Source of the DNA: Micrococcales bacterium 72-143
GTDB lineage: Bacteria > Actinomycetota > Actinomycetes > Actinomycetales > Microbacteriaceae
DNA length: 64,000 nt
Direction of reading: 5' to 3'
NCBI GenBank assembly: GCA_001898835.1
Contig: MKVM01000005.1
Coordinates: 310,001-374,000, forward strand
The notes beneath the pieces are model-generated. The model made no database searches, had not been told where the DNA came from, and saw nothing but the letters and a program-made list of their open reading frames with translations. Both the position numbers and the translations under genes were made by a program. Shown here piece by piece: positions 2,401 to 45,171 of the stretch (its first letter is position 1; each line of letters opens with the position of its first letter).

Positions 2401-3390
2401 ATGGAGAGCATCACCAAGAACCGCCAGTCGGTGGACACGCTGCGGGCGATGATCGCGCGGGCGTACGGGGCGGATGCCGTGCCGGCGGGCGACGACTTCG
2501 CCGCCGAGCTCGGGCACGGCTGGTTCAACGTCGCCTACCGCCTCACCCTGGCGGACGGGCGACGCGTCGTGCTCAAGATCGCACCGCCCCGCGGCGTGAC
2601 CGTGATGAGCTACGAGCACGACATGATGCGCAACGAGCTCACCGCGCTCGCGCTCGTCCAGGAGCACACCGACGTGCCGGTCCCCCGGGTCGACTTCGCC
2701 GACATCGACGGCGAGCTGATCGGCGTGCCGTGGTTCGCGATGCCGTTCATCGACGGCGACAACGTCGGCATCCTCGCCGAGGAGGGGAAGCTCGCCCCCG
2801 AGGAGCTCGCGGCGTACGACGAGCAGATCGGCGCCATGAACAGGAAGCTCAACGCCATCGTGGGCACCCACTTCGGCCCGCTCCGCGGCGCCGGTCACGC
2901 GAGCTGGCGCGGCGCGTTCGGGGCCATGATCGAGGACGTCGTCGCGGACGGCGAGCGCGCCGGCCTCGACCTCGGATGGGACTACCCCGTCGTCCGCGAG
3001 CTCATCGCCCGGGAGCTGCCCCTGCTCGACGTCGTCACCGAGCCCCGCTTCGTCGAGTGGGACCTCTGGTCGAGCAACGTGATGGTGCAGGACGGCCGCA
3101 TCGTCGCGATCATCGACCACGAGCGCGCGTTCTACGGCGACCCGCTCATCGAGGCGGGCTTCACCGCGATCGACCTGCCCGCGTTCGGCGACCCGGCCGG
3201 CTTCATGCGCGGCTACGGGCAGCCCCAGCTCAGCCCCGAGGAGGCGCGCCGGCGCCTGCTCTACTCGCTCTATCTCGTGCTCATCATGATCATCGAGACC
3301 CACTACCGCGGGCACGAGACGCCTACGCAGTACGACTGGGCCCGCGAGCGCCTCACGGAGCTCATGGCGCGCTACGGCCTGACGCGCTGA
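2401..3390 (+). CDS. Aminoglycoside-phosphotransferase-like kinase
   Basis: A 329-residue protein of the APH/choline-kinase fold. The N-lobe contains VVLKIAPP with the probable ATP-binding Lys near residue 60. The catalytic loop reads EWDLWSSNVMV, keeping the Brenner-motif Asp and Asn but replacing the usual His-Gly by Glu-Trp, and the metal-binding segment is IIDHERAFYGDP. This family phosphorylates small hydroxylated molecules; the substrate is unknown. AGGGG lies nine bases before the ATG. The MATE exporter starts five bases after its stop, so the two genes and the following tetR are probably one operon; a kinase with an exporter could form a detoxification unit, but that is inference. Confidence 0.8.
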   Translation: MESITKNRQSVDTLRAMIARAYGADAVPAGDDFAAELGHGWFNVAYRLTLADGRRVVLKIAPPRGVTVMSYEHDMMRNELTALALVQEHTDVPVPRVDFADIDGELIGVPWFAMPFIDGDNVGILAEEGKLAPEELAAYDEQIGAMNRKLNAIVGTHFGPLRGAGHASWRGAFGAMIEDVVADGERAGLDLGWDYPVVRELIARELPLLDVVTEPRFVEWDLWSSNVMVQDGRIVAIIDHERAFYGDPLIEAGFTAIDLPAFGDPAGFMRGYGQPQLSPEEARRRLLYSLYLVLIMIIETHYRGHETPTQYDWARERLTELMARYGLTR

Positions 3391-3394
3391 CCCC

Positions 3395-4762
3395 GTGCGT
3401 GCGACCCCCCGGCGGTCGCCGATCGACTCGGCGGACGCGCTCGGCACCCGGCCCATCGGCCGCCTGCTCTGGTACGCCTGCTCGCAGACCACGCTCTCCG
3501 TCGGCGTCTACGGCGTCTACGCGCTCAGCAACGCGTGGTTCGTCGCCCGCGGGGTGGGTGAGGAGGCGCTCGCCGCCGTGAACCTCGTGGCGCCCGTGCT
3601 GCTGCTGCTCGGCGCGATCTCGACGACCGTGGGCGTCGGCGGCGCCTCGCTCGTCTCCCGCGCCCTCGGGGCGGGGAGGCCGGATGCCGCGGCGCGTGCC
3701 GCCTCCGCCTCGTTCCTGATCTTCTGGGCCGTCGCCCTCCTCGTCACCGTGGTGGGCCTCGCCGCGATCGACCCCCTGCTGGGGCTGCTCGGAGCGACGG
3801 ATGCCACGTTCGCCGACGCGCACGACTACGCCGTCGTCATCCTCGCCGGCTCCGTGCTCGCCACCGGCTTCTCGGCGATCGTGCGCGCGGAGGGGCGGAT
3901 GCTGTTCTCGACGCTGCTCTGGGTCATCCCCGTTCTCGTGCAGCTCACCCTCGATCCGCTGCTGATCTTCGGGGCGGGGATGGGCGTGACGGGCGCCGCG
4001 CTCGGCACCGTCGGCGGGCAGGCCGTCTCGGCGGGCATGGCGCTCTGGTTCTTCTTCGCGCAGCGCGACCGCCCCTACCGGATCGGCATCGCGGCGCTGC
4101 GGCCCGACCCGCGGGTGTCGGCGGCGGTGCTCGCGATCGGGGCGCCGTCGTTCCTCGCGGGCTTCGGCGCGACCGTCCTCGTGGTGCTCGTCAACGCGAA
4201 CCTGGCGGCCCTCGCGGCCGGGGCGGGCGTCACGCTCGCCGCGTACGCGGTCGCATCCCGCGTGCAGACCTTCCTCTCGATGCCGCAGCTCGGGATCACC
4301 CAGGGTGTGCAGCCGATCGTCGGCTACAACGCCGGCCGCGGGCTCACGGGGCGGGTCGCCCGCACGCTGACCCTCTCGTTGCGCGCCACCGTGCTGTACG
4401 GGATCGCCGCGGCCGCGATCGTGCTCCTCGCGGCGCCCGTCGTCGTCGGCTGGTTCGTGTCGGAACCGGACACCGTCGCGGTGTCGACGACGGCGTTGCG
4501 CCTCGTCGCGATCGGGCTGGTGTTCTCCGGCGTGCCGCCCCTCGTCTCGGGCTTCTTCCAGGCGCTCGGTCGGGCGCGGCCGTCGTACCTGATCTCGATC
4601 GGCACGCTCGTGGCGATCAAGATCCCGCTCGTCGCGGTGCTGGGGATCTGGAGTCCGCTCGGGATCTGGGTCGCGCTGCCGCTCGGGGAGCTGCTCGCGG
4701 CGATGACGGCCCTCGTCGTGCTGCGACACGGGACACGAGAGGATCGACGCGATGATCGATGA
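3395..4762 (+). CDS. MATE family multidrug efflux transporter
   Basis: A 455-residue polytopic membrane protein with about twelve hydrophobic segments in two related halves, as in the MATE/DinF antiporters that expel cationic drugs using Na+ or H+. The first half shows ALAAVNLVAPVLLLLGAIST and the conserved GVGGASLVSRALGAG turn; the second half shows GITQGVQPIVGYNAG, a MATE hallmark. The GTG start at 3395 is four bases after the upstream kinase stop, suggesting translational coupling. The last codons overlap the start of the tetR gene by 11 bases. Export by a locally regulated MATE pump fits a drug- or metabolite-resistance operon. Confidence 0.9.
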   Translation: MRATPRRSPIDSADALGTRPIGRLLWYACSQTTLSVGVYGVYALSNAWFVARGVGEEALAAVNLVAPVLLLLGAISTTVGVGGASLVSRALGAGRPDAAARAASASFLIFWAVALLVTVVGLAAIDPLLGLLGATDATFADAHDYAVVILAGSVLATGFSAIVRAEGRMLFSTLLWVIPVLVQLTLDPLLIFGAGMGVTGAALGTVGGQAVSAGMALWFFFAQRDRPYRIGIAALRPDPRVSAAVLAIGAPSFLAGFGATVLVVLVNANLAALAAGAGVTLAAYAVASRVQTFLSMPQLGITQGVQPIVGYNAGRGLTGRVARTLTLSLRATVLYGIAAAAIVLLAAPVVVGWFVSEPDTVAVSTTALRLVAIGLVFSGVPPLVSGFFQALGRARPSYLISIGTLVAIKIPLVAVLGIWSPLGIWVALPLGELLAAMTALVVLRHGTREDRRDDR

Positions 4763-5369
4763 GGGGGATCTCGCAGCCCGCGGCTATCCGAAGGGGCGAC
4801 GCAAGCGCGCGGAGATCGTGAGCGCGGCGCTGCACGCCTTCGCCGTCGACGGCTACCGCAGCGCCTCGATGACCCAGCTCGCCGCGGCCTGCGGCGTATC
4901 CCGCGCGGGGCTCGCGCACCACTTCCCCACCAAGGAGAGCCTCCTCATCGCCGTGCTCACGGAGCGCGACCGGGTCAACGGTGAACTGTTCTTCACCGGT
5001 GCCGACGGCGGTGCCGACGGCCTCGACTACTTTCGACGCCTCGTACGCGTCATCGCTCACAACGTCTCGGTGCCCGGCGTGATCGGCCTGTACGCGACGC
5101 TGTCGACCGAGGCGGCCGACCCGGCGCACCCCGCCCACGACTACTTCGTCGACCGGTTCCGCTGGCTGCGCCGCGACATCCGCGCGGCGCTCGTCGACGT
5201 GACGGCGCGCGGGCTGGTGCACGACGGCCTCGACCTCGACGACGTGGCGTCGGACATCATCGCGCTCATCGACGGCCTCCAGGTGCAGTGGCTCATGGAG
5301 CCCGCGACGACCGACATGGCGGCGCGCCTCGAGTCGTGGCTGGAGCAGACGCTCGGGCTCCGGCTCTGA
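4752..5369 (+). CDS. TetR/AcrR family transcriptional regulator
   Basis: A 205-residue regulator. The N-terminal helix-turn-helix is clear: RAEIVSAALHAFAVDGYRSASMTQLAAACGVSRAGLAHHFPTK spans roughly residues 15-60 and is the canonical TetR DNA-binding domain (quoted here in outline; key recognition part GVSRAGLAHHF). The C-terminal part is a divergent helical ligand-binding domain. It overlaps the MATE gene by 11 bases in another frame, so it is translated with it, and it most likely represses this operon. No obvious operator is seen inside the operon; the inverted repeat at 2325-2346 is a candidate target. Confidence 0.88.
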   Translation: MIDEGDLAARGYPKGRRKRAEIVSAALHAFAVDGYRSASMTQLAAACGVSRAGLAHHFPTKESLLIAVLTERDRVNGELFFTGADGGADGLDYFRRLVRVIAHNVSVPGVIGLYATLSTEAADPAHPAHDYFVDRFRWLRRDIRAALVDVTARGLVHDGLDLDDVASDIIALIDGLQVQWLMEPATTDMAARLESWLEQTLGLRL

Positions 5370-5400
5370 CGCCGTCGGCCGTCACTGGCAGGGTGGCGCC

Positions 5401-5970
5401 ATGGCGATCGAGGTGCGACCGGCGACGGTGTTCGCGGACGTCGCGACGATGGTGGGGCCGAAGCGTCCGGATGCGAACGTCTGCTGGTGCCTCAGCTACC
5501 GCATCCCGTCGGCGCTGAACCGCGAGCTCGCGGGCACCGCGCGCGGCGCGCTCGTGGAGCAGCTCGTCGCCGAGACCCCGCCGCCCGGCGTGCTCGCCTA
5601 CGACGGGCCCGAGGTGGTCGGCTGGGCGGCGGTGCACCCCCGGGCCGACACGAGCTTCGCGCGCAACCGCCGCATCCCGCACGTCGACGAGCTCGAGGCG
5701 TGGTCGGTGTGGTGCATCCGCGTGCGCCCGGGCCACCGCGGCCGGGGCATCTCCCACGAGCTGCTCGACGGGGCCGTCGACTTCGCCCGCGCCAACGGCG
5801 CGCCCGCGATCGAGGGGTACCCGGTCGACAATCGCGGGGAGAAGGTCGACCTCACGATGGCCTACGTCGGCACGCGGAGGCTGTTCGAGCGGGCGGGCTT
5901 CCGCAAGGCGGCCGACACGACCTCCGTGCTCGCGGGGTTCCCCCGGGTGCTGATGCGCCTGGAGCTCTGA
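5401..5970 (+). CDS. GNAT family N-acetyltransferase
   Basis: A 189-residue acetyltransferase. The acetyl-CoA pyrophosphate-binding motif A is VRPGHRGRGISHELL (about residues 109-123), followed by helix and the GAPAIEGYP strand; the C-terminal GTRRLFERAGF is motif B. A CWC motif near residue 30 (NVCWCLSYR) is shared by a GNAT subgroup of unknown substrate. CAGGGT ends six bases before the ATG, a weak version of the leaderless promoter arrangement seen elsewhere in this window. It is convergent with the lipoprotein gene, four bases separating the stops. Confidence 0.85.
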   Translation: MAIEVRPATVFADVATMVGPKRPDANVCWCLSYRIPSALNRELAGTARGALVEQLVAETPPPGVLAYDGPEVVGWAAVHPRADTSFARNRRIPHVDELEAWSVWCIRVRPGHRGRGISHELLDGAVDFARANGAPAIEGYPVDNRGEKVDLTMAYVGTRRLFERAGFRKAADTTSVLAGFPRVLMRLEL

Positions 5971-5974
5971 GCGC

Positions 5975-6442
5975 TCAGGCGGGTCGGGGGGTGCCGATGA
6001 GGCAGCGGCCCGTCGCGAGCACCTCGCTCACGAGGCTCGTGTAGCCGATGTTGCCCCACTGCCCGAGCAAGCAGGTCTCCCCGAAACGGATCGAGAAGAC
6101 GACGTTGTCGGCGGGCTCGCCGATCGCCGTCTTGTCGGGGGTGACCTCCATGCTCTCCCGGGGGTAGCCGTGCGCGACGAGGTTGTCGACGAACGCGGGC
6201 CCGTTGAGCGCGCCCCCGGCCGCGATGAGCTCGCGGTTCACCAGGTCGAAGTAGCCCTGGTTGTCGGCGGCGGTTCCGTCGAAGACCGGCTCCGGGTCGG
6301 GCGTGGGGGTGGGCGACGGCTCGGCGCTCGAGGTGCCGCTCGTCGACGGGGTCGGCATGGGCCCGGGCGCGGTGCACGCCGTGAGCGCCAGGAGCGCCAC
6401 GGCGGCGACGGCGCAGGCGAGCGCTCGACGCGGTCGGGTCAT
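5975..6442 (-). CDS. Small secreted lipoprotein (DUF6993-like)
   Basis: A 155-residue exported lipoprotein. Residues 1-22 form a signal peptide with positive N-region (MTRPRR), hydrophobic core and lipobox LTAC, so Cys22 should be lipidated. A Ser/Thr/Pro-rich linker follows to about residue 50. The folded domain (residues 55-150) contains two further Cys residues that could form a disulfide. The pattern resembles the Microbacteriaceae DUF6993 family as I recall it; no biochemical role is known. GGAGG precedes the ATG by about seven bases. Confidence 0.7.
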   Translation of the reverse strand: MTRPRRALACAVAAVALLALTACTAPGPMPTPSTSGTSSAEPSPTPTPDPEPVFDGTAADNQGYFDLVNRELIAAGGALNGPAFVDNLVAHGYPRESMEVTPDKTAIGEPADNVVFSIRFGETCLLGQWGNIGYTSLVSEVLATGRCLIGTPRPA

Positions 6443-6490
6443 CGCATCCTCCGGAGCTCGGCCGGCGACGGCCGCGCGGCTGGGACGAGT

Positions 6491-6955
6491 CTAGAACGGC
6501 ACGGTGACGGGCTCCTGCGCGTCGACCGGGAATCCGGTCTCCTCGAGGACGCCCTCCGCGCTCGCAGCGCCGGCCGGGCCGGCGTCGGCCGACGCCGCAC
6601 GCGACGCGCGCGCGTACTGCGCCCTGCCCCACGCGAGGTCGGGGCCGATCGCATCCGCCACGATCTCGACGTTGCGGCCCTTCTTCTCGCCGTCCTGCCA
6701 GTCGCGCACCTTGAGCCGCCCCGAGACGAGGACGCGGTGCCCCTTCTCGAGCGAGGCCGCGACGTTCGCGGCGAGCTGCCGGAACGCGACGACGGTGAAC
6801 CAATTGGTCTCGCCGTCGACCCAGCTGCGCGTGGCGGGGTCGAAGCGACGGCTGCTCGACGCCAGCCGGAACTGGCTCACCTCGAGCCCCTCGCCCGTGA
6901 CCGTGTGCTTGACGGGCGTGGCCATGAGCCCCGCCACGGTGATGATGTCGACCAT
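6491..6955 (-). CDS. ssb: Single-stranded DNA-binding protein
   Basis: A 154-residue SSB. The first ~105 residues are an OB fold with the usual SSB order: ITVAGLMATPV, ETNWFTVVAFRQLAANVAAS and KGHRVLVSGRLKVRDW. The C-terminal third is Ala-rich and ends TVPF rather than the acidic DDDIPF tip of the essential housekeeping SSB, so this is probably a second, short SSB (as found in many actinobacteria, some linked to recombination or competence). AGGGAGG precedes the ATG with good spacing. No partner gene is adjacent. Confidence 0.85.
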   Translation of the reverse strand: MVDIITVAGLMATPVKHTVTGEGLEVSQFRLASSSRRFDPATRSWVDGETNWFTVVAFRQLAANVAASLEKGHRVLVSGRLKVRDWQDGEKKGRNVEIVADAIGPDLAWGRAQYARASRAASADAGPAGAASAEGVLEETGFPVDAQEPVTVPF

Positions 6956-9476: not shown

Positions 9477-10481
9477 ATGCCGTACACCGCCGCCGCCGAC
9501 CGCTACGACCAGCTCGAGTACGCCCGCGTGGGCCGATCGGGGCTCAAGCTCCCCCGCATCTCGCTCGGGCTCTGGAACAACTTCGGCCACGACAGGCCGC
9601 TCACCACGCAGCGCGACATCGTGCTGCGCGCGTTCGACCTCGGGGTCACCCACTTCGACCTCGCGAACAACTACGGCCCGCCGCCCGGATCCGCGGAGGA
9701 GAACTTCGGCCGCATCCTCGCGAGCGATCTGCGCCCCTACCGCGACGAGCTCGTCATCTCGTCGAAGGCCGGCTACGACATGTGGCCGGGGCCGTACGGC
9801 GAGTGGGGCTCGCGCAAGTACATCCTGAGCTCGCTCGACCAGTCGCTCACGCGCCTCGGGCTCGACTACGTCGACATCTTCTACCACCACCGCCCCGACC
9901 CCGAGACGCCCGTCGAGGAGTCGATGGGCGCGCTCGCGCACGCGGTCCGCTCGGGCAAGGCGCTGTACGCGGGCATCTCGAACTACGGTCCGGATGACAC
10001 CCGCCGTGCGTACCAGGCGCTCGCCGCCGAGGGGGTGCCGCTGCTCATCCACCAGCCCTCCTACTCCATGTTCAACCGCCTCCCCGAGGAGGGCCTGCTC
10101 GACACGATCGAGGAGCTCGGCATCGGCTCGATCGTCTTCTCGCCGCTCGCCCAGGGGCTGCTCACGAACCGCTACCTCGACGGGATCCCGGCCGACTCCC
10201 GCGCCGCCGAAGGGCGCTGGATCAACGCCGACACCATCAGCGACGAGTACCTCGAGCGCGCTCGCGGCCTCAACGCGATCGCCGAGGCGCGCGGGCAGAG
10301 CCTCGCGCAGCTCGCGCTGCTGTGGGTGCTGCGGCAGCCCGCCGTGACGAGCGCGCTCATCGGCGCGTCCAGCGTGCGGCAGCTGGAGGACAACCTCGGA
10401 GCGCTCGACGGCGCCCCGCTCACCGCGGAGGAGATCGCGGCGATCGAGCCGTTCGCCGTGCACGGCACCGTGCGCCGCTAG
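9477..10481 (+). CDS. Aldo/keto reductase, L-glyceraldehyde-3-phosphate reductase type
   Basis: A 334-residue NADPH-dependent reductase of the AKR14/YghZ-like group. The catalytic tetrad is visible: Asp and Tyr in FDLANNYGPPPGSAEENFG, Lys in ISSKAGYDMWPGPYGEWG, and His in FYHHRPDPETP. The C-terminal ASSVRQLEDN segment is the NADP phosphate-binding part. YghZ homologues reduce methylglyoxal and L-glyceraldehyde 3-phosphate; the exact substrate here is inferred. TAGGGT at 9465-9470 ends six bases before the ATG, predicting a leaderless transcript. Confidence 0.9.
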   Translation: MPYTAAADRYDQLEYARVGRSGLKLPRISLGLWNNFGHDRPLTTQRDIVLRAFDLGVTHFDLANNYGPPPGSAEENFGRILASDLRPYRDELVISSKAGYDMWPGPYGEWGSRKYILSSLDQSLTRLGLDYVDIFYHHRPDPETPVEESMGALAHAVRSGKALYAGISNYGPDDTRRAYQALAAEGVPLLIHQPSYSMFNRLPEEGLLDTIEELGIGSIVFSPLAQGLLTNRYLDGIPADSRAAEGRWINADTISDEYLERARGLNAIAEARGQSLAQLALLWVLRQPAVTSALIGASSVRQLEDNLGALDGAPLTAEEIAAIEPFAVHGTVRR

Positions 10482-10540
10482 CCCCCAGCGGCATCCGGCG
10501 ACGCAGCTCGCCGCCCTCGGTCCCGTGCGCCACGCGTCAT

Positions 10541-10636
10541 CCAGCCCGAGAAATGCAGGAGAACTCGGGCCGCTCGGGGGCTAGATCATGAGTTCACACA
10601 GGCCCGACGCCGACCCTCCTGCATTTCTCGGGCTGG
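10541..10636. repeat. Inverted pair of the AGAAATGCAGGAG motif
   Basis: Two 21-base arms (10541-10561 and 10616-10636) are perfect complements and each contains the 13-mer AGAAATGCAGGAG, in opposite orientation. The left arm also makes a local six-base stem (CCCGAG with CTCGGG). It follows the aldo/keto reductase gene. The same 13-mer forms a six-copy array at 41660-41867. Confidence 0.85.
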
Positions 10637-10746
10637 GGGATGGGCGCACACACGCCGCAGAGCGGACGATGGACGCGAGCGCCGCAATCCGACGGCGCGC
10701 GGGGGAAGACGGGCCGTTCCGCCACGCATCGACGTAGGGTGCCGCC

Positions 10747-13092: not shown

Positions 13093-15756
13093 TCATCCTT
13101 CCTCGTCGACGGTTCGGACGGCGCGGCTGGCGCCGGAACGGCGGGCGAGGGCCGCCGCGAGCAGGACGCCGACGAGCACGACGGCGACGAGCGCCGCGAC
13201 CACGGCGGCCGAGGTGCCGATCCCGAGCTCGATGGCCGGCTGGACGGCACCCCGCGTGAAGACGGTGAGGTCGCCCGCGCGCACCACGAGCGGCACGAGC
13301 GCGAGCCCCGCGGCGGCGCCGACCGGCACGGCCACGGCGAGGGCGGGCAGCAGCTCCCACAGCACGAGCGCGTACTCGGCGCGGGAGCGGGCGCCGAGCG
13401 CACGGAGCAGGCCGAACACGCGGGTGCGTCCCGCGGCGCCCGAGGTGAGGGCGAGCACGGCGGCGAGCACCGTGAGCACGGCGGATGCCGCGACCGCGAT
13501 CGCGGTGCCCGTGACGAGGGCGCGCACGGCGGGGGCGTCGCGGCGGTCCGCGAGCACCTGGTCGATCGTGCGCACGGTGCCGTTTCCGGCGAAGCGCTCC
13601 GCGAGGGCGGCCCGCACCCCGTCCTTCTCGGTGGGCGCGGCGTCGATGAGCAGCGCCCTCGTGTCGGCGTCCACGTCGAGGCCCGCAGCGGTGGCCGGGC
13701 TGACGGCGATCCACGCCGAGGCCCGCCCGAAGGGTCCGTCGTCGGGAACCACGGCGGCCACCGCCACGTCCACGCCGTCGACCGCGAGCGGCTCCCCCGC
13801 GAGCCGGGTCGCGACGGTCTCCGAGACGAGCGCCCCCGCATCCGGGATCACGAGCTCGCTCGTCGAGGACCGCGCGAAGTCGGCCGGGTCGGCGACGTAC
13901 ACCGTGATCCGCCCGTCGCCGTCGGGGAACTCGACCGTGATGTCGGGGTCGGATGCGACGGCGGCGACCGATCCGACGCCCGCGGTGCCCGCCACCACGG
14001 CGACGTCGTCGGCGTCGAGGTACCGGGCGTCGAGGCGCACGGCCGCGCCGACCTGGGCGCGCGCCGCGTCGTCGACGCCGGTCTGCACCGTCGCGAGCAG
14101 GCCCGCCCCGAGCACCGAGATCGTGACCGCCGTCACGAGCGCGAGCACCGGCACGATGCCGGTCGTGGCGTCACGGCCCGCACGCGCGGGCCCGAGCAGC
14201 GAGACGAGCCCCCGGGTGCGTCGCGCGCCGGCCTCCAGCGCCCGCACGAGGAGCGGCACGAGGCGCAGCGCGAGCACGCAGCCGGCCGCCGCGACCAACG
14301 CGGGCAGCAGCACGGCCGTCGGGGGCGGCGGGGCGCCGTCCTTCGCGGGCGCGAGCACGACGAGCACGGCTGCGGCGACCGCGAGCAGCGCGATTCCGGC
14401 GTCGAGGGCGCCGCGGATGCGCGACCGCCGCCGATCGGCGTCGTCCGGCCGTGGGCCCGCGCGCTCGAGCAGCGCGCCGTCGAGCGCGGCCGACGCCGCG
14501 GCGAGGGCGGCGATCCCCGCGACGACGAGGGCCAGCGTCGCGGGCGGGCCTCCTACGGTGCCGGACACGGCGGCTGCCGCGCCCGCCGCACCGAGCAGGG
14601 CGAGCATCCCGGTCGCCAGGGCGAGCGCGCCCGCTCGCGCCCCGTCGGACGCCCCACGCGCCGCGAGCAGGCGCAAAAGGCTGCGGCGTCGCGCCACGAG
14701 CGCGCGCACCGCGAGGGCGAGCACGGCGCCGCCCGCGAGCGCGACGCCCGACGCGAGCGTGCCGTGCAGCGCCGAGACGCCCGCGAGCAGCGGCCCGGTC
14801 GCCGTCACGATGCCCGGTGTCGTGCCGCCCAGCGAGATGTCGACATCCCAGGTGCCCCAGTCGGTGACGAGGGGGAGCGTGTGCGGGGTCGACTCGAGCC
14901 GGCGAAGCGCCGCGACCGTCTCGGCGGCGGCGTCCGCCTCGAACGCGGCGGGGTCGACCGGCAGCCAGGCCTCGAAGCGCGAGGCCGCGGCCAGCCACTC
15001 GAGCTCGGAGATGGAGGCGGCGTCGACGTAGCCCGCCCCCACGAAGGTCGGCGGCTGGTTGAAGTTGTCGATGACCTCCGGCTGCAGCGCGACGCCGACG
15101 TGGCTCCACTCCCCCGCATCCGGGTCGCGCGCGCGCAACAGCCCCACGAGGCGCAGCTCCACGTCGCCCGTGGAGTAGTGCGCCGAGCGCACCTCGCCGA
15201 GCCGCCAGCCGAAGGCGGTCGCGACCGGCTCGGTCAGTGCCACCGGGATGGGCTCGCCCTCCACGATGGGGCCGGGCAGCTCGCCGTCGACGACGTCCAC
15301 GAGCCGGTCCAGCAGGGGGTCCGCGCTCAGGATGATGCGGCTGTCGGGTGCCGCACTCCCGTCCGAGGGAACGGCGGGCGCCTGGTCGAAGCGCACGACG
15401 GCGTGCGGCGCGCGGAGCACGCGCGCGGCAGCCGGCTCGGCACCCGCCGCCATCGCATCGAGGGCGTCGAAGGTGGCACCCCACGCGGCGGCGACCTCCC
15501 GGGTGAGGCCGTGGTCGGTGCGACCGGTGCGCGACACGGGCACGCCGCGCGTCGCGTCGCCGAGGTCGCGCTGCGAGGGCGGGGAGGCCTCGACCGCCGA
15601 CCGCAGCACCTCCGAGCGCGCCGCGGAGGCCCAGGCGGACGCGCCCGCCGCCCCGCCCGCGAGCAGCGCCGCGAGCAGCACGACGACGATCGACGCCCCC
15701 GGCGCCTCGGCGAGGATCGCCCGGACGATACGGCCGTGCGACGGTCGGCGGCTCAC
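13093..15756 (-). CDS. FtsX-like ABC permease
   Basis: An 887-residue membrane protein. The N-terminal helix (IVVVLLAALLAGGAAGASAW, residues ~17-36) is followed by a large extracytoplasmic domain, then a block of hydrophobic helices around residues 320-620, a second external domain, and three C-terminal helices with the FtsX-like order. Start GTG 15756 overlaps the stop of the previous permease (GTGA), which also sets the correct frame; the frame stays open further upstream but that stretch is antisense-like low-complexity. It ends four bases before the ATPase start. Likely exports or acts on a lipid, peptide or envelope substrate. Confidence 0.85.
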   Translation of the reverse strand: MSRRPSHGRIVRAILAEAPGASIVVVLLAALLAGGAAGASAWASAARSEVLRSAVEASPPSQRDLGDATRGVPVSRTGRTDHGLTREVAAAWGATFDALDAMAAGAEPAAARVLRAPHAVVRFDQAPAVPSDGSAAPDSRIILSADPLLDRLVDVVDGELPGPIVEGEPIPVALTEPVATAFGWRLGEVRSAHYSTGDVELRLVGLLRARDPDAGEWSHVGVALQPEVIDNFNQPPTFVGAGYVDAASISELEWLAAASRFEAWLPVDPAAFEADAAAETVAALRRLESTPHTLPLVTDWGTWDVDISLGGTTPGIVTATGPLLAGVSALHGTLASGVALAGGAVLALAVRALVARRRSLLRLLAARGASDGARAGALALATGMLALLGAAGAAAAVSGTVGGPPATLALVVAGIAALAAASAALDGALLERAGPRPDDADRRRSRIRGALDAGIALLAVAAAVLVVLAPAKDGAPPPPTAVLLPALVAAAGCVLALRLVPLLVRALEAGARRTRGLVSLLGPARAGRDATTGIVPVLALVTAVTISVLGAGLLATVQTGVDDAARAQVGAAVRLDARYLDADDVAVVAGTAGVGSVAAVASDPDITVEFPDGDGRITVYVADPADFARSSTSELVIPDAGALVSETVATRLAGEPLAVDGVDVAVAAVVPDDGPFGRASAWIAVSPATAAGLDVDADTRALLIDAAPTEKDGVRAALAERFAGNGTVRTIDQVLADRRDAPAVRALVTGTAIAVAASAVLTVLAAVLALTSGAAGRTRVFGLLRALGARSRAEYALVLWELLPALAVAVPVGAAAGLALVPLVVRAGDLTVFTRGAVQPAIELGIGTSAAVVAALVAVVLVGVLLAAALARRSGASRAVRTVDEEG

Positions 15757-40641: not shown

Positions 40642-40724
40642 GGTTCAAGGCTAGATAGCCCGTGACATTACTGCGAGCTATGGTGGCTATAACTCCTATT
40701 CGATTGCCGAATGGAAGGTTCCGG
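40642..40724. promoter_or_regulatory. Divergent LysR/MFS control region
   Basis: ATTCG-attgc-CGAAT (40699-40713) is a T-N11-A type LysR box, 12 bases before the lysR start. A second, imperfect symmetry (GATAGCC near 40653 and GGCTATA near 40685) surrounds the MFS -10 at 40648-40653. The region is markedly AT-richer than its flanks. Confidence 0.6.
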
Positions 40725-41567
40725 ATGTTCGACCCCGCGCTGCTGCGCACCTTCGTCGCGGTCGCCGACACGGCCAGCTTCACGCGCGCCGCCGAACTGC
40801 TCGGCATCAGCCAGCCGACCGTCAGCCAGCAGGTGCGCCGGCTCGAGAACGCGGCCGGGCGCATCCTCGTGGCGCGCGACACACGCGCGGTGCGGCTCAC
40901 CGACAACGGGGATGCGATGCTCGGTTTCGCCCGCACCATCCTCGCCGCCCACGACGAGGCCGCCGCGTACTTCGTCGGCTCGGCCATGCGCGGGCGCCTG
41001 CGGTTCGGCGCGGCCGACGACCTCGCCCTCACCCATCTGCCGCAGGTGCTCCGCGACTTCCGGCAGCTGTACCCGCAGATCAACCTCGAGCTGACCGTCG
41101 GCCAGAGCGGCTACCTCGCGCGCCGGCTCAGCGCCGGTCAGCTGGACCTCGTCTACGTCAAACAGGACCCGGGCAGCGGCGAGGGACGCACCGTGCGCCG
41201 CGAGCGTCTCGTCTGGGTCGCCCACCGCTCCCTGCGGCTCGAGCCCACCGCGACCGTGCCGCTCATCGTCTACCAGGCGCCCAGCTACTCGCGTGACACC
41301 GCGATCCGCGCGCTCGAGGACTCCGGACGCACCTGGCGCATCACCTGCAACGTGCGCGAGGTCAACGGTGCCCTCGCCGCCCTGCGCGCGGGCATCGGCA
41401 TCGCCGTGTTTCCCCGCGTGCTCATCCCCGACGACCTCGTCGAGGTCACGGGTGCGTTCGAGCTGCCGCGGCTCGGCGAGGTCGACTTCACGCTGCTCGC
41501 CAACCCGCGCTCCGCCCGCGAGCCCGCCGACGCCCTCGCGAACGCGATCCACGCGACCGCGCGGTGA
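40725..41567 (+). CDS. LysR family transcriptional regulator
   Basis: A 280-residue LTTR. The helix-turn-helix FTRAAELLGISQPTVSQQVRRLE is at residues ~18-40 (shown in part: GISQPTVSQQVRRLE). The effector domain (residues ~90-280) begins RLRFGAADDLALTHLPQVLR, the usual first strand and helix. ATG 40725 is preceded by GGAAGG; an upstream in-frame start would enter the control region. It is divergent from the MFS exporter, the standard LTTR-target arrangement, so it is likely to regulate it together with its own gene. The effector is unknown. Confidence 0.92.
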   Translation: MFDPALLRTFVAVADTASFTRAAELLGISQPTVSQQVRRLENAAGRILVARDTRAVRLTDNGDAMLGFARTILAAHDEAAAYFVGSAMRGRLRFGAADDLALTHLPQVLRDFRQLYPQINLELTVGQSGYLARRLSAGQLDLVYVKQDPGSGEGRTVRRERLVWVAHRSLRLEPTATVPLIVYQAPSYSRDTAIRALEDSGRTWRITCNVREVNGALAALRAGIGIAVFPRVLIPDDLVEVTGAFELPRLGEVDFTLLANPRSAREPADALANAIHATAR

Positions 41568-41659
41568 CCGACGCCGCCTCCGCCACTCCGCCCCCTCGGC
41601 TCCCTCCTCCCCCCTCCGTCCTCTTCATCCCCTCCGCCGCCTCCGCCCCTCCTCGGTCG

Positions 41660-41867
41660 AGAAATGCAGGAGCCCCGTCGCCCCCCACTCCAGAAATGCA
41701 GGAGCCCCATCGCCCCCTAACTCCAGAAATGCAGGAGAAGACACCGGATGTGAGCCGCGCGGCCGCGGATACGGGGCGCTCTCCCCCCACCTCCTGCATT
41801 TCTGGAAGAGGGCGGAGGGCAGCTCCTGCATTCCTGGATGAGGACGGAGGCCGGCTCCTGCATTTCT
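41660..41867. repeat. Mirrored six-copy array of AGAAATGCAGGAG
   Basis: Forward copies at 41660, 41692 and 41725; inverted copies at 41791, 41823 (one mismatch) and 41855. Steps are 32, 33, then 66, 32, 32 bases. Spacers of about 19 bases are C/T-rich and not conserved. The array fills the gap between the convergent lysR and adnB ends. The remaining gap (41568-41659, 41868-41973) shows no gene. Confidence 0.92.
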
Positions 41868-41973
41868 CCACGGAGGCCAGTGAATTCTCCCCGGAGGCGA
41901 GAGCGGTTCCCTCCGCTTGCGGCGCCGAGCCGCGCGCGACACCGCGGCATGCACGACGTTCCGGGGGCGGGGG

Positions 41974-44900
41974 TCAGGCGGGGAACACCGCGCGCCAGCG
42001 GGCGAGCAGCTCCTCCTCGGTGTCGATGTGCTCGGGGCGGATGACGCGGTCGTCCTGCACGAAGTAGAACGCCGCGTCGATGAGCGAGGGGTCGATGCCC
42101 TCCCACCGCGCATACGCGAGCCGGTAGAGGGCGAGCTGCAGCTGCTTGCGCTCCAGATCGGCGTCATCCCGCGGCGCCTTGCCCGTCTTCCAGTCGACCA
42201 CCTCCAACCGGTCGCCGTGCCGGTAGACGGCGTCGATCTTGCAGATCACGACGCGACCGTCGAAGGGGAGGTGGATCTCGCGCTCCACCTCGACGGGCGC
42301 GAGCTGCGCCCAGGGGGAGCGCTCGAAGGTGGCCTGCAGCTCGGCGAGCCGCTCCGCGTCCACGACCTCGCCCTCGTCGTCGAGCTCGAAGGGGGCCGCA
42401 TCCAGCTCGTCGGAGCCGCCCAGGCGTCCGTAACGCTCCTCCACCCAGGAGTGGAAGAGCGTGCCGAGCCGCGTCGCCCGGTAGGGGCGCTCGGGCATCG
42501 GGCGCCGCAGCTCCGCCGCGACGGCGTCCGGATCGGTCACGTAGTCCTTGAACGCCGACGCCGGGATGCGCACCGGCAACGGCACGACGCCCTCGCGGGT
42601 GCGACGCCGCTCCCGCTCCTCGAGCAGCAGCTCGGTCTCGCGCGCCCACCGCCCGGCGAGGGCCGGCCGCGTCACCCGCACGCGCTCGGCCGCGGCGCGT
42701 ACCGCGGCGCCACGCGAGCCGAACGGCTCGTTCGGCCACACCGTCCACTCCGCCTCCGCGCCCTCGGGCGGCTCGTCGGTCGCGGATGCGGCGGGCGGCT
42801 CCGCCACGATGCCCGCCGCTGCGAGCTCGAGCAGGAACCCGCTCGGCGTGCGCGGCTTCTTCTGGCCGGCCCAGAACGAGCCCGACACCAGCAGGTGGTC
42901 GCGCGCGCGGGTGACGGCGACGTAGGCGAGGCGCCGCTCCTCGGCCCGGTAGTGCTCGACCACGTCCCCGCGGAACCCCTTGACGGCGTCGACGTACTCC
43001 TTGCGGGTGGTGACGGCGTCGAGGTCGAGGCGCGGCAGCTGCGCCCGGTCGCCCCGCTCCGGCCACGGGAAGCGCCCGAAGCCGAGCCATCCGCCGTACC
43101 CCTCGATCGGCGCCGCCGGCAGCTCGTCCTCCACCCAGCGCGACACCGCCACGATGTCCCACTCGAGCCCCTTGGCCCCGTGGATGGTCAGCACCTGCAC
43201 GGTTCCGGGCTCCGGATCTTCGGGGCGCGGGGTGAGATCCTCGCGCTGCTCGGCCTCCCGCAACCAGGCGAGGAAGCCCGCGAGCGTCGCCGTCTCGGCG
43301 ATCGCCAGATAGCCCGACAGCGCGTCGAGCAGGGCGTCGAGGTTCGCCTCCCCCGCCGTGCGCGTCTCGTTGGCGGCGAGCTCGATGTCGAGGCGCAGCT
43401 CGTGCGCGACGAGCACGAGCAGCTCCGGCAGCTCGAGCGCGGCGCGCGAGCGGAGCCGGTCGAAGGTCGCCGCGGCCGACCGCAGTCGCGCGAGGCCCTC
43501 CGCGCTGAAGGCCTCGAGGACCCGATGCCCCTCGGCGGCACGACCCACGAACTCGAGCGCGTCGACGATGGAGCCGCCCTCGTCGCCGGCGACCGACTCG
43601 CCGAGCCGCTGCTGCACCTCGTCCGACAAGATGCCGCTCTCGGCGCTGTCGTGGCGGGACAGCCATCCGGCCACGTCGCGCAGCGCGTCGAGGTCGGCGA
43701 CGCCGATGCGCCAGCGCGCGCCCGCGAGCAGCCGCAGCAGCTCGAGGCCCGCATCCGGGTCGTCGAGCACGCGCAGGGCGCTCACCAGGTCGGCGATCTC
43801 GGGCTCGGCGAGCAGCCCACCGACGCCGAGCACGTGATACGGCACCCCCGCGGCGCGGAGCGCGTCGAGGAAGTGCGGTTGCGTCTTGCGCGCCCGCAGC
43901 AGGAGGGCGGCGGATGCGGGGCGCCCGGTGCGCGCGCGGGCCTCGGCGAGCCGGTCGCGCAGCCAGCCCGCCACCGCCTCCGCCTCCTCGGCGACCGTCT
44001 CGGGGTAGACGCTCGAGACGGCGAACCCGCTCGCTCCGGGGCGCGCCTCGAGCGTCGGCACCTCGGCGCCCTCGCCCGTGCTCGCCCCCACGAGGGTGTT
44101 CGCCGCGTCGAGGATGCTGGTGCCGTTGCGCCAGCTCGTCGCCAGCGTGAACCGGGTCGCCGGCTCGCCGTCGCGGCGCCGGAACCGGGGGCGGAACTCG
44201 CGCAGGTTGGAGGCGCTCGCGCCGCGCCATCCGTAGATCGACTGGTTCGGGTCGCCCACCGCCGTGACCGGCGTGCCGGCGAAGAGCTCGGACAGCAGCT
44301 CCGTCTGCACGACGGAGGTGTCCTGGTACTCGTCGAGCAGCACGACGCGGAAGCGCGCGCGGAGCTCGTCGATCGCGGCGCGCCGGGCGCGCACCGCATG
44401 GAGCGCGAGCACCACCTGGTCGGCGTAGTCGACCGCCCCCCGCAGCCGCTTGGCCCGCTCGTACTCGGCCGCGAGGTCGACGAGCAGCTCGAGCTGCGCG
44501 ACCTCGCGCATCCGCTCGACGTCGGACGCGTACTCGGCCTTGCCGCCGAGCGGCAGCTCGGGGAGCCCGGCGAAGCGACGCCCGATGGCGCGCACGCGCT
44601 CGGGGTCGGCGTCGTTGTCGGCGATGCCCCGCGCGATCTGCAGCGTCGCCTCGACGACGGAGTCGAGCCGCTTGTCGAGCTGCTCGAGTCGCGGGTCGTC
44701 ACTGCGCACGACGACGTTGCGGGCGAGCTGCCACGCCGCCGCCTCGCCGAGCACCACGCCGTCGCCGTCGCGGCCGAGCACGAGGGCGTTGTCGCGGAAC
44801 ACGGCGCTCGCGAAGGAGTTGTAGGTGGAGATCTCGGGGGCGTCGAAGAGGTCGTGGTCGTCGGGCGCGAGGCCCGCGGTGTGGAGCTCGGCGAGCCGGG

Positions 44901-45171
44901 TGCGGATGCGGTCGGCCAGCTCGCCAGCCGCCTTGCGCGTGAAGGTGAGGCCGAGAACCTCAGCGGGCTTCAGGTGCCGGTTGGCGACGAGCCACAGCAC
45001 GCGGTTCGCCATCGTCTCCGTCTTGCCGGATCCGGCGCCCGCCACGACGAGCGCGGGCTCGGCCGGGTCGGCCTCGATGACGGCCTCCTGCTCGCGCGTC
45101 GGGTAGCGCACCTCCTCACCCCGCACCTCGGCGAGCGCCTCCGCGATGCGCCGCGCACTCACCTCAGTCAT
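41974..45171 (-). CDS. adnB: Helicase-nuclease AdnB
   Basis: A 1065-residue UvrD-type helicase with C-terminal PD-(D/E)XK nuclease, the main motor of the AdnAB DNA-end-resection machine. Visible: AGAGSGKTETM (Walker A, residue ~44), LTFTRKAAGELADRIR, VVLLDEYQDTSVVQ (II), GDPNQSIYGWRGA, TSWRNG, IHGAKGLEWDIVAV (V), RRLAYVAVTRARDHLLV (VI). The nuclease motif is EVVDWKTGKAPRDDAD followed by QLQLALYRLAY near the end. It overlaps adnA by eight bases, so both subunits are co-translated. The 3' flank carries the mirrored repeat array. Confidence 0.94.
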   Translation of the reverse strand: MTEVSARRIAEALAEVRGEEVRYPTREQEAVIEADPAEPALVVAGAGSGKTETMANRVLWLVANRHLKPAEVLGLTFTRKAAGELADRIRTRLAELHTAGLAPDDHDLFDAPEISTYNSFASAVFRDNALVLGRDGDGVVLGEAAAWQLARNVVVRSDDPRLEQLDKRLDSVVEATLQIARGIADNDADPERVRAIGRRFAGLPELPLGGKAEYASDVERMREVAQLELLVDLAAEYERAKRLRGAVDYADQVVLALHAVRARRAAIDELRARFRVVLLDEYQDTSVVQTELLSELFAGTPVTAVGDPNQSIYGWRGASASNLREFRPRFRRRDGEPATRFTLATSWRNGTSILDAANTLVGASTGEGAEVPTLEARPGASGFAVSSVYPETVAEEAEAVAGWLRDRLAEARARTGRPASAALLLRARKTQPHFLDALRAAGVPYHVLGVGGLLAEPEIADLVSALRVLDDPDAGLELLRLLAGARWRIGVADLDALRDVAGWLSRHDSAESGILSDEVQQRLGESVAGDEGGSIVDALEFVGRAAEGHRVLEAFSAEGLARLRSAAATFDRLRSRAALELPELLVLVAHELRLDIELAANETRTAGEANLDALLDALSGYLAIAETATLAGFLAWLREAEQREDLTPRPEDPEPGTVQVLTIHGAKGLEWDIVAVSRWVEDELPAAPIEGYGGWLGFGRFPWPERGDRAQLPRLDLDAVTTRKEYVDAVKGFRGDVVEHYRAEERRLAYVAVTRARDHLLVSGSFWAGQKKPRTPSGFLLELAAAGIVAEPPAASATDEPPEGAEAEWTVWPNEPFGSRGAAVRAAAERVRVTRPALAGRWARETELLLEERERRRTREGVVPLPVRIPASAFKDYVTDPDAVAAELRRPMPERPYRATRLGTLFHSWVEERYGRLGGSDELDAAPFELDDEGEVVDAERLAELQATFERSPWAQLAPVEVEREIHLPFDGRVVICKIDAVYRHGDRLEVVDWKTGKAPRDDADLERKQLQLALYRLAYARWEGIDPSLIDAAFYFVQDDRVIRPEHIDTEEELLARWRAVFPA

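Follow-up and report, generated by a model that had tools for sequence, protein, structure and literature searches.

The feature that was first noticed as a 32-bp array is real, widespread and strongly conserved. Its genome-wide unit is an inverted pair, in which AGAAATGCAGGAG is followed by 54 free bases and then by CTCCTGCATTTCT, and the array is one such pair, at 41725-41803, with its arms repeated outward at 32-33-bp steps. There is, in our judgement, an even chance that these pairs are the paired binding sites of a putative chromosome protein, spread over the chromosome in the manner of Noc or SlmA sites. Unless another genome, contig or locus is named, positions refer to the window, the whole 64,000-nucleotide stretch of DNA that was analysed.

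The window holds six copies of AGAAATGCAGGAG in the array, three forward and three inverted, at the positions that the earlier note on this DNA had given. Open reading frames and Pfam matches bear out the flanking genes that it had named, a LysR-type gene and a convergent UvrD-helicase/nuclease gene; the product of the latter fits AdnB, the name it had been assigned. Two further copies, missed at that time, lie at 10549 (+) and 10616 (-) and form one inverted pair behind an aldo/keto reductase gene. The features are the following.

10549-10561, + strand: left arm of the single pair, exact match
10562-10615, no strand: interior of the single pair, 54 bases between both arms
10616-10628, - strand: right arm of the single pair, exact match, 67 bp start to start
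40662-41567, + strand: LysR-type regulator gene left of the array (ORF; PF03466, PF00126)
41568-41973, no strand: spacer with the array, 406 bp between the two convergent genes
41660-41672, + strand: outermost forward motif copy, left half of the array, exact match
41692-41704, + strand: middle forward motif copy, left half of the array, exact match, 32 bp after the first
41725-41737, + strand: left arm of the core pair of the array, exact match, starting 66 bp before the inverted copy at 41791
41738-41790, no strand: interior of the core pair of the array, 53 bases between both arms
41791-41803, - strand: right arm of the core pair of the array, exact match
41823-41835, - strand: middle inverted motif copy, right half of the array, one mismatch
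41855-41867, - strand: outermost inverted motif copy, right half of the array, exact match
41974-45171, - strand: UvrD-helicase/PD-(D/E)XK nuclease gene right of the array (ORF; PF00580, PF13361, PF12705)

Chance is ruled out for the window copies because eight matches to the motif with at most two mismatches were found against 0.37 expected, and none of 100 shuffles reached eight. Tandem Repeats Finder assigned a 32-bp unit to both halves of the array, with 2.4 copies at 93% matching in one and 2.5 copies at 83% in the other. A pyrimidine-rich run (CCT/CTCC repeats) at 41572-41654 directly precedes the array, and C-rich outer flanks are a general trait of the pairs.

The motif extends well beyond the window. 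The source genome (G000; 3.33 Mb in six contigs, three of them shorter than 3 kb) contains 74 exact copies of AGAAATGCAGGAG and none of the reversed control; with up to one mismatch there are 89 motif copies and one control match. Nearly all copies are paired, giving 43 pairs, and the spacing in 42 of them is 67 bp in 35, 68 bp in five and 66 bp in two. The 32-33-bp period reported previously therefore stands inside the array, where the steps are 32 and 33, then 66, then 32 and 32, but not genome-wide, where the inverted pair at 66-68 bp is the rule and the shorter step is rare beyond 41660-41867. Small arrays with steps of 43-67-33 or their mirror image occur at C5:467613 in the source genome, at 710309 in G003 and at 1895062 in G005; those of the source genome and G005 are located in different spacers, at opposite ends of one TetR-ABC gene group (gene names by eye). 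Strict helical phasing of the extra copies was rejected, as same-strand steps of 22, 32, 33 and 43 fit it and steps of 18, 19 and 36 do not.

These counts bear directly on the suggestion of an uptake-signal-like sequence, that is, a DNA-uptake or other sorting word that sits in pairs by chance. The motif is indeed short and conserved, and it recurs through the genome as inverted pairs near gene ends. Known uptake words, however, are far more numerous than 74 copies in 3.33 Mb, and nearly all copies here are paired at one spacing, which leaves this explanation very improbable.

Pairs with the 10-base core AAATGCAGGA were found in 32 of 398 Microbacteriaceae genomes, representing 16 of 85 genera, and the family-wide scan gave no control match among the matches listed. 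Within the genus of the source genome, eight of nine genomes carry between 1 and 43 pairs each and G008 carries none. Among the matches listed, the named records with at least two pairs are Homoserinibacter gongjuensis, Homoserinibacter sp. GY 40078, Protaetiibacter mangrovi and Pseudolysinimonas kribbensis, and the metagenome-assembled records with at least two belong to Cryobacterium, Frigoribacterium, Salinibacterium, Schumannella and Rhodoglobus. The end words depend on lineage, being AGAAATGCAGGAG in the source genome and TGTCGAAAATGCAGGAG, with one base more inside, in H. gongjuensis. Matches in Thiohalomonas, Clostridium and Bacillus were set aside for their low G+C content and other flanks, and single matches of that scan may be chance. 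The Thiohalomonas metagenome assembly (L084, L088) has long near-perfect palindromes that contain AAATGCAGGA and are repeated between contigs, unrelated to the Microbacteriaceae pairs. A virus origin was rejected: the one viral match, at 43% G+C and with other flanks, was taken as chance. No plasmid match to 10440-10740 was found. Judged by titles and the opening parts of abstracts, the literature retrieved with AGAAATGCAGGAG and CTCCTGCATTTC consists of unrelated work, and at the same depth neither publications on Microbacteriaceae nor those on nucleoid occlusion and matS/MatP in actinobacteria describe such repeats.

Comparison between species separates the arms from the DNA that they enclose. 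At nine non-coding loci common to species, which were selected for having a pair in both, the two core arms are preserved together with their spacing, and the interiors score 0.34-0.48 in 15 comparisons, where the random baseline is 0.43 (95% point 0.51); parallel gain could account for any single one of these loci. Three shared loci lie within genes, and there the interior scores are 0.93 in tlyA, 0.91 and 0.87 in a PF03601 gene, and 0.49 and 0.54 in the smc linker. The tlyA and PF03601-gene interiors are retained as coding sequence and the smc linker interior is not. The smc pair of L188 (gene 3200-6847) lies in the linker before the second ATPase part, and L136 and L065 likewise have a pair in smc.

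The constraint on the arms extends to codon choice. In the PF03601 membrane-protein gene the arm-encoded LPAF is written CTT CCT GCA TTT in four of four genomes, with codons used for 0.6, 1, 3.7 and 0.4% of their amino acids, respectively, and the codons between the arms vary across the same four genomes. This gene was not found in the stretches examined of G001, G002, G003 and G008, and the comparison therefore covers motif-bearing genomes alone. Beside an arm of the gene in L195 (about 13750-13800), a TCATCC/GCATCC run codes for Ser/Ala; it is missing in G007 and G006. Arms that keep every letter and their distance, even where this takes rare codons, with the DNA between them replaced, point to a conserved binding event.

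Decayed pairs are rare. Over 22 core positions, with up to three mismatches allowed, 59 of 72 pairs have none, 13 have one and none has two or three (all pairs listed for G003, G005, G006 and G007, with G000 left out). Scored over the 13-base arms, the 43 pairs of G000 comprise 25 that are perfect, 11 with one change and seven with two or more, several of which have the GAAAATG form of other lineages. One copy, at C5:447419 of G000, has a visibly damaged partner arm.

The interiors carry little common sequence. Among 36 equal-length pairs, the best match between two interiors is 33 of 54 positions, which equals the 95% point in a column-permuted control, so no recent copy was seen together with its donor. 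Their mean best match, 28.9, is slightly above the 27.2 of that control (sd 0.34), and their folding is slightly stronger than that of shuffles (mean z -0.83, s.e. 0.23). In other genera, sub-words recur at fixed places within the interiors and differ by genus: G045 has GAGTCACACG on one side, and G174 has CGGCGTGTCG. We read these as extra contacts.

The sites also turn over. Both window sites are absent in all eight same-genus relatives, and sequence comparison suggests that both are recent gains. The array spacer contributes 408-424 unaligned bases here versus 6-42 in seven of the eight relatives. In the eighth, G003, it has 152 bases with an unrelated repeat, and the stretch of that genome (L209) that matches 41568-41973 holds variants of CTACTCGATCAGCGGGAGG in both orientations; this spacer seems to attract repeats. 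The pair at 10549 is accompanied by 120-207 extra bases relative to the same genomes. Sites thus arise anew, bringing more DNA than the 80-bp unit, and this is the main support for a mobile-element reading. At a place in G007 (L234, about 9528-9946) that matches a pair locus of the source genome, there is another inverted repeat, TGTCAAACGCTGTAGCGGTTGGCCA with its mirror image, perhaps a separate element family.

Such a reading would make the pairs REPIN-like mobile hairpins, non-autonomous elements with two inverted end words and a loose spacer, copied by a non-RAYT enzyme that requires the words and their spacing. We regard it as a possible but tentative explanation. Gains with extra bases of 120-207 for the pair at 10549 and about 250-410 for the array speak for it; the copy number of 0-43 within the genus and the intergenic location, often behind genes, are consistent with it, and new master copies would explain why end words and spacings differ between genera. 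However, no Y1_Tnp (RAYT) protein was detected in the nine genomes of the genus by a search that was positive in five of 14 control genomes, and no interiors in the source genome match beyond the control's 95% point. Old shared sites retain their arms after interior turnover, and pairs with two or three core mismatches are missing in four genomes, whereas an excerpt of PMC8049555 describes decayed remnants as typical of REPINs. If the pairs are mobile, they would represent a REPIN system without its transposase. A transposase between widely spaced copies was rejected as a candidate on one case, viewed by eye, in which the frames (L183) encode PadR-like and membrane proteins.

The placement behind genes that had been described for the array holds for most pairs, and the pairs are not scattered at random with respect to gene ends. 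With genes called by a simple composition script, 16 of the 43 pairs lie between convergent genes, 19 between tandem genes, five between divergent genes and three inside genes, whereas the background of intergenic bases (the window and 20 stretches of G007) is 12.9% convergent, 57.1% tandem and 30.0% divergent. Convergent spacers are favoured, and 15 of the 19 tandem cases are closer to the end of the upstream gene than to the start of the next. A shared regulon was rejected, the neighbours being mixed genes (names by eye).

A position behind genes raises the question of an RNA hairpin: the two arms would base-pair once transcribed and would terminate, protect or cleave the mRNA of both strands. 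The preference for convergent spacers and gene ends agrees with this, the RNA fold of the array is far better than that of shuffles (z -8.7), and the outer flanks of pairs are somewhat more complementary than swapped flanks (z 1.6-3.1), an excess that comes mainly from a few pairs such as 10549 and one in L179. The array fold, however, is accounted for by the words and base composition: when motif copies were kept and the spacers shuffled, 52 of 500 controls paired as well as the array halves, and a long RNA hairpin as the purpose of the array was rejected. Among 18 changed pairs only one has a change shared by both arms and 17 are uncompensated, the inner flanks pair no better than swapped flanks, and the letters of the arms are conserved beyond what mere pairing would ask. 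Pairs also occur within five divergent spacers and three genes. These observations make an RNA hairpin unlikely, and the compound terminator proposed in the earlier note is weak on the same grounds, as no terminator-like site is present; a search for intrinsic terminators (a G+C-rich stem, a short loop and a T run) gave none in 41500-42000, where 0.2 were expected. No Rfam family at threshold supports the hairpin. A known RNA family was likewise rejected for the window, which at threshold yields two tRNAs only and at relaxed settings yields chance matches, the best of them to a miRNA model with 25 bits versus a threshold of 58. Reading of double-stranded DNA is favoured over RNA structure because arm changes are unmirrored, inner positions pair at chance and the fold of the array is explained by words and base composition.

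Along the chromosome, the pairs are scarce opposite the origin. In a dnaA-based test, without dif or a control repeat, the quarter farthest from dnaA holds five of 75 site clusters versus 18.7 expected by random rotation, with a rotation p of 0.0014 or 0.0021 depending on the placement of the second contig of G045. The test used one genome for each of six genera and counted clusters within 10 kb once; G045, G087, G169, G174 and G017 were chosen from pair-bearing genomes outside the genus, and G000 (which has several large contigs) was left out, as were G114, G316 and G364, in which dnaA had been located. Most single genomes are not significant alone and G169 shows nothing, so that depletion of dispersed sites round the terminus, a trait of the Noc/SlmA type, is present in the pooled six-genus test and weak in single genomes. 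A core-gene gradient could contribute to this scarcity.

From the arms, their spacing and their placement we infer a protein that binds and bridges the pairs and takes part in chromosome organisation. Each pair would act as a single bipartite site with mirror symmetry, about 80 bp long, to which a sequence-specific chromosomal protein would bind. Each half-site of 13-17 bp would be read, as double-stranded DNA, by one of two protein units or by one of two domains in a symmetric oligomer. That the distance is fixed and the interior free suggests that the complex is rigid and symmetric and that it spans or wraps about 80 bp. The rigid 66-68-bp offset would keep the half-site readers in register, and the interior sequence would be largely free because the complex would simply bridge or wrap it. 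Selection would maintain up to about 40 of these sites in a genome, mostly behind genes and with few of them farthest from dnaA. Like Noc and SlmA sites, they might label the origin side and the middle part of the chromosome for a role in the cell cycle or the nucleoid. In the array, outward duplication of the arms at 32-33-bp steps, about three turns of DNA, could bring further bound units onto the same face of the DNA. The analysis found no binding protein, and HTH_ParB proteins number one per genome in 12 of 12 genomes, which leaves no second, Noc-like ParB paralogue. A binding array and a genome-organising site still appear the best of the options in the earlier note; its terminator and its uptake signal have lost ground.

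The anatomy of the pairs is closest to that of REPINs, and the elements that define it, two inverted conserved words, a fixed spacing and a less conserved spacer, are all present. According to an excerpt of PMC3116915, group I REPINs in Pseudomonas fluorescens SBW25 carry two invariant 16-mers at a distance of 71 bp, and the spacer between them is less conserved. This distance is close to the 66-68 bp found here, mostly 67 bp, and in both cases the sites are mostly intergenic. Unlike REPINs, the pairs have no accompanying RAYT in nine of nine genomes, their interiors are not recognisably copied, damaged copies are rare and shared arms are kept between species. We do not class the pairs as REPINs, because the RAYT and clear mutual copies are missing, though they may work like one. 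MITEs also have short inverted ends, an intergenic location and gains at empty places, but MITE copies share their interior and the pairs do not (best match 33 of 54); a search of nine genomes for Y1_Tnp only showed no autonomous partner. Nucleoid-occlusion sites resemble the pairs in number and placement. According to an excerpt of PMC4726725, there are about 70 Noc sites in B. subtilis and 24-52 SlmA sites in E. coli, both underrepresented near Ter, and the pairs are likewise a few dozen dispersed sites, up to 43 pairs, underrepresented near the terminus. The known sites, however, are single palindromes (14 bp for Noc), whereas each pair consists of two asymmetric words at 66-68 bp that enclose free sequence, and there is no ParB paralogue; we do not class the pairs as a nucleoid-occlusion site set because the binding protein is only putative. 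If this protein organises the chromosome, Microbacteriaceae would have their own counterpart of Noc or SlmA sites. We tentatively picture a chromosome-marking system of this family in which a complex reads two inverted half-sites of 13-17 bp at 66-68 bp and skips the interior, and in which avoidance of the terminus might tie division or segregation to the course of replication; such a system would parallel Noc and SlmA on another site architecture.
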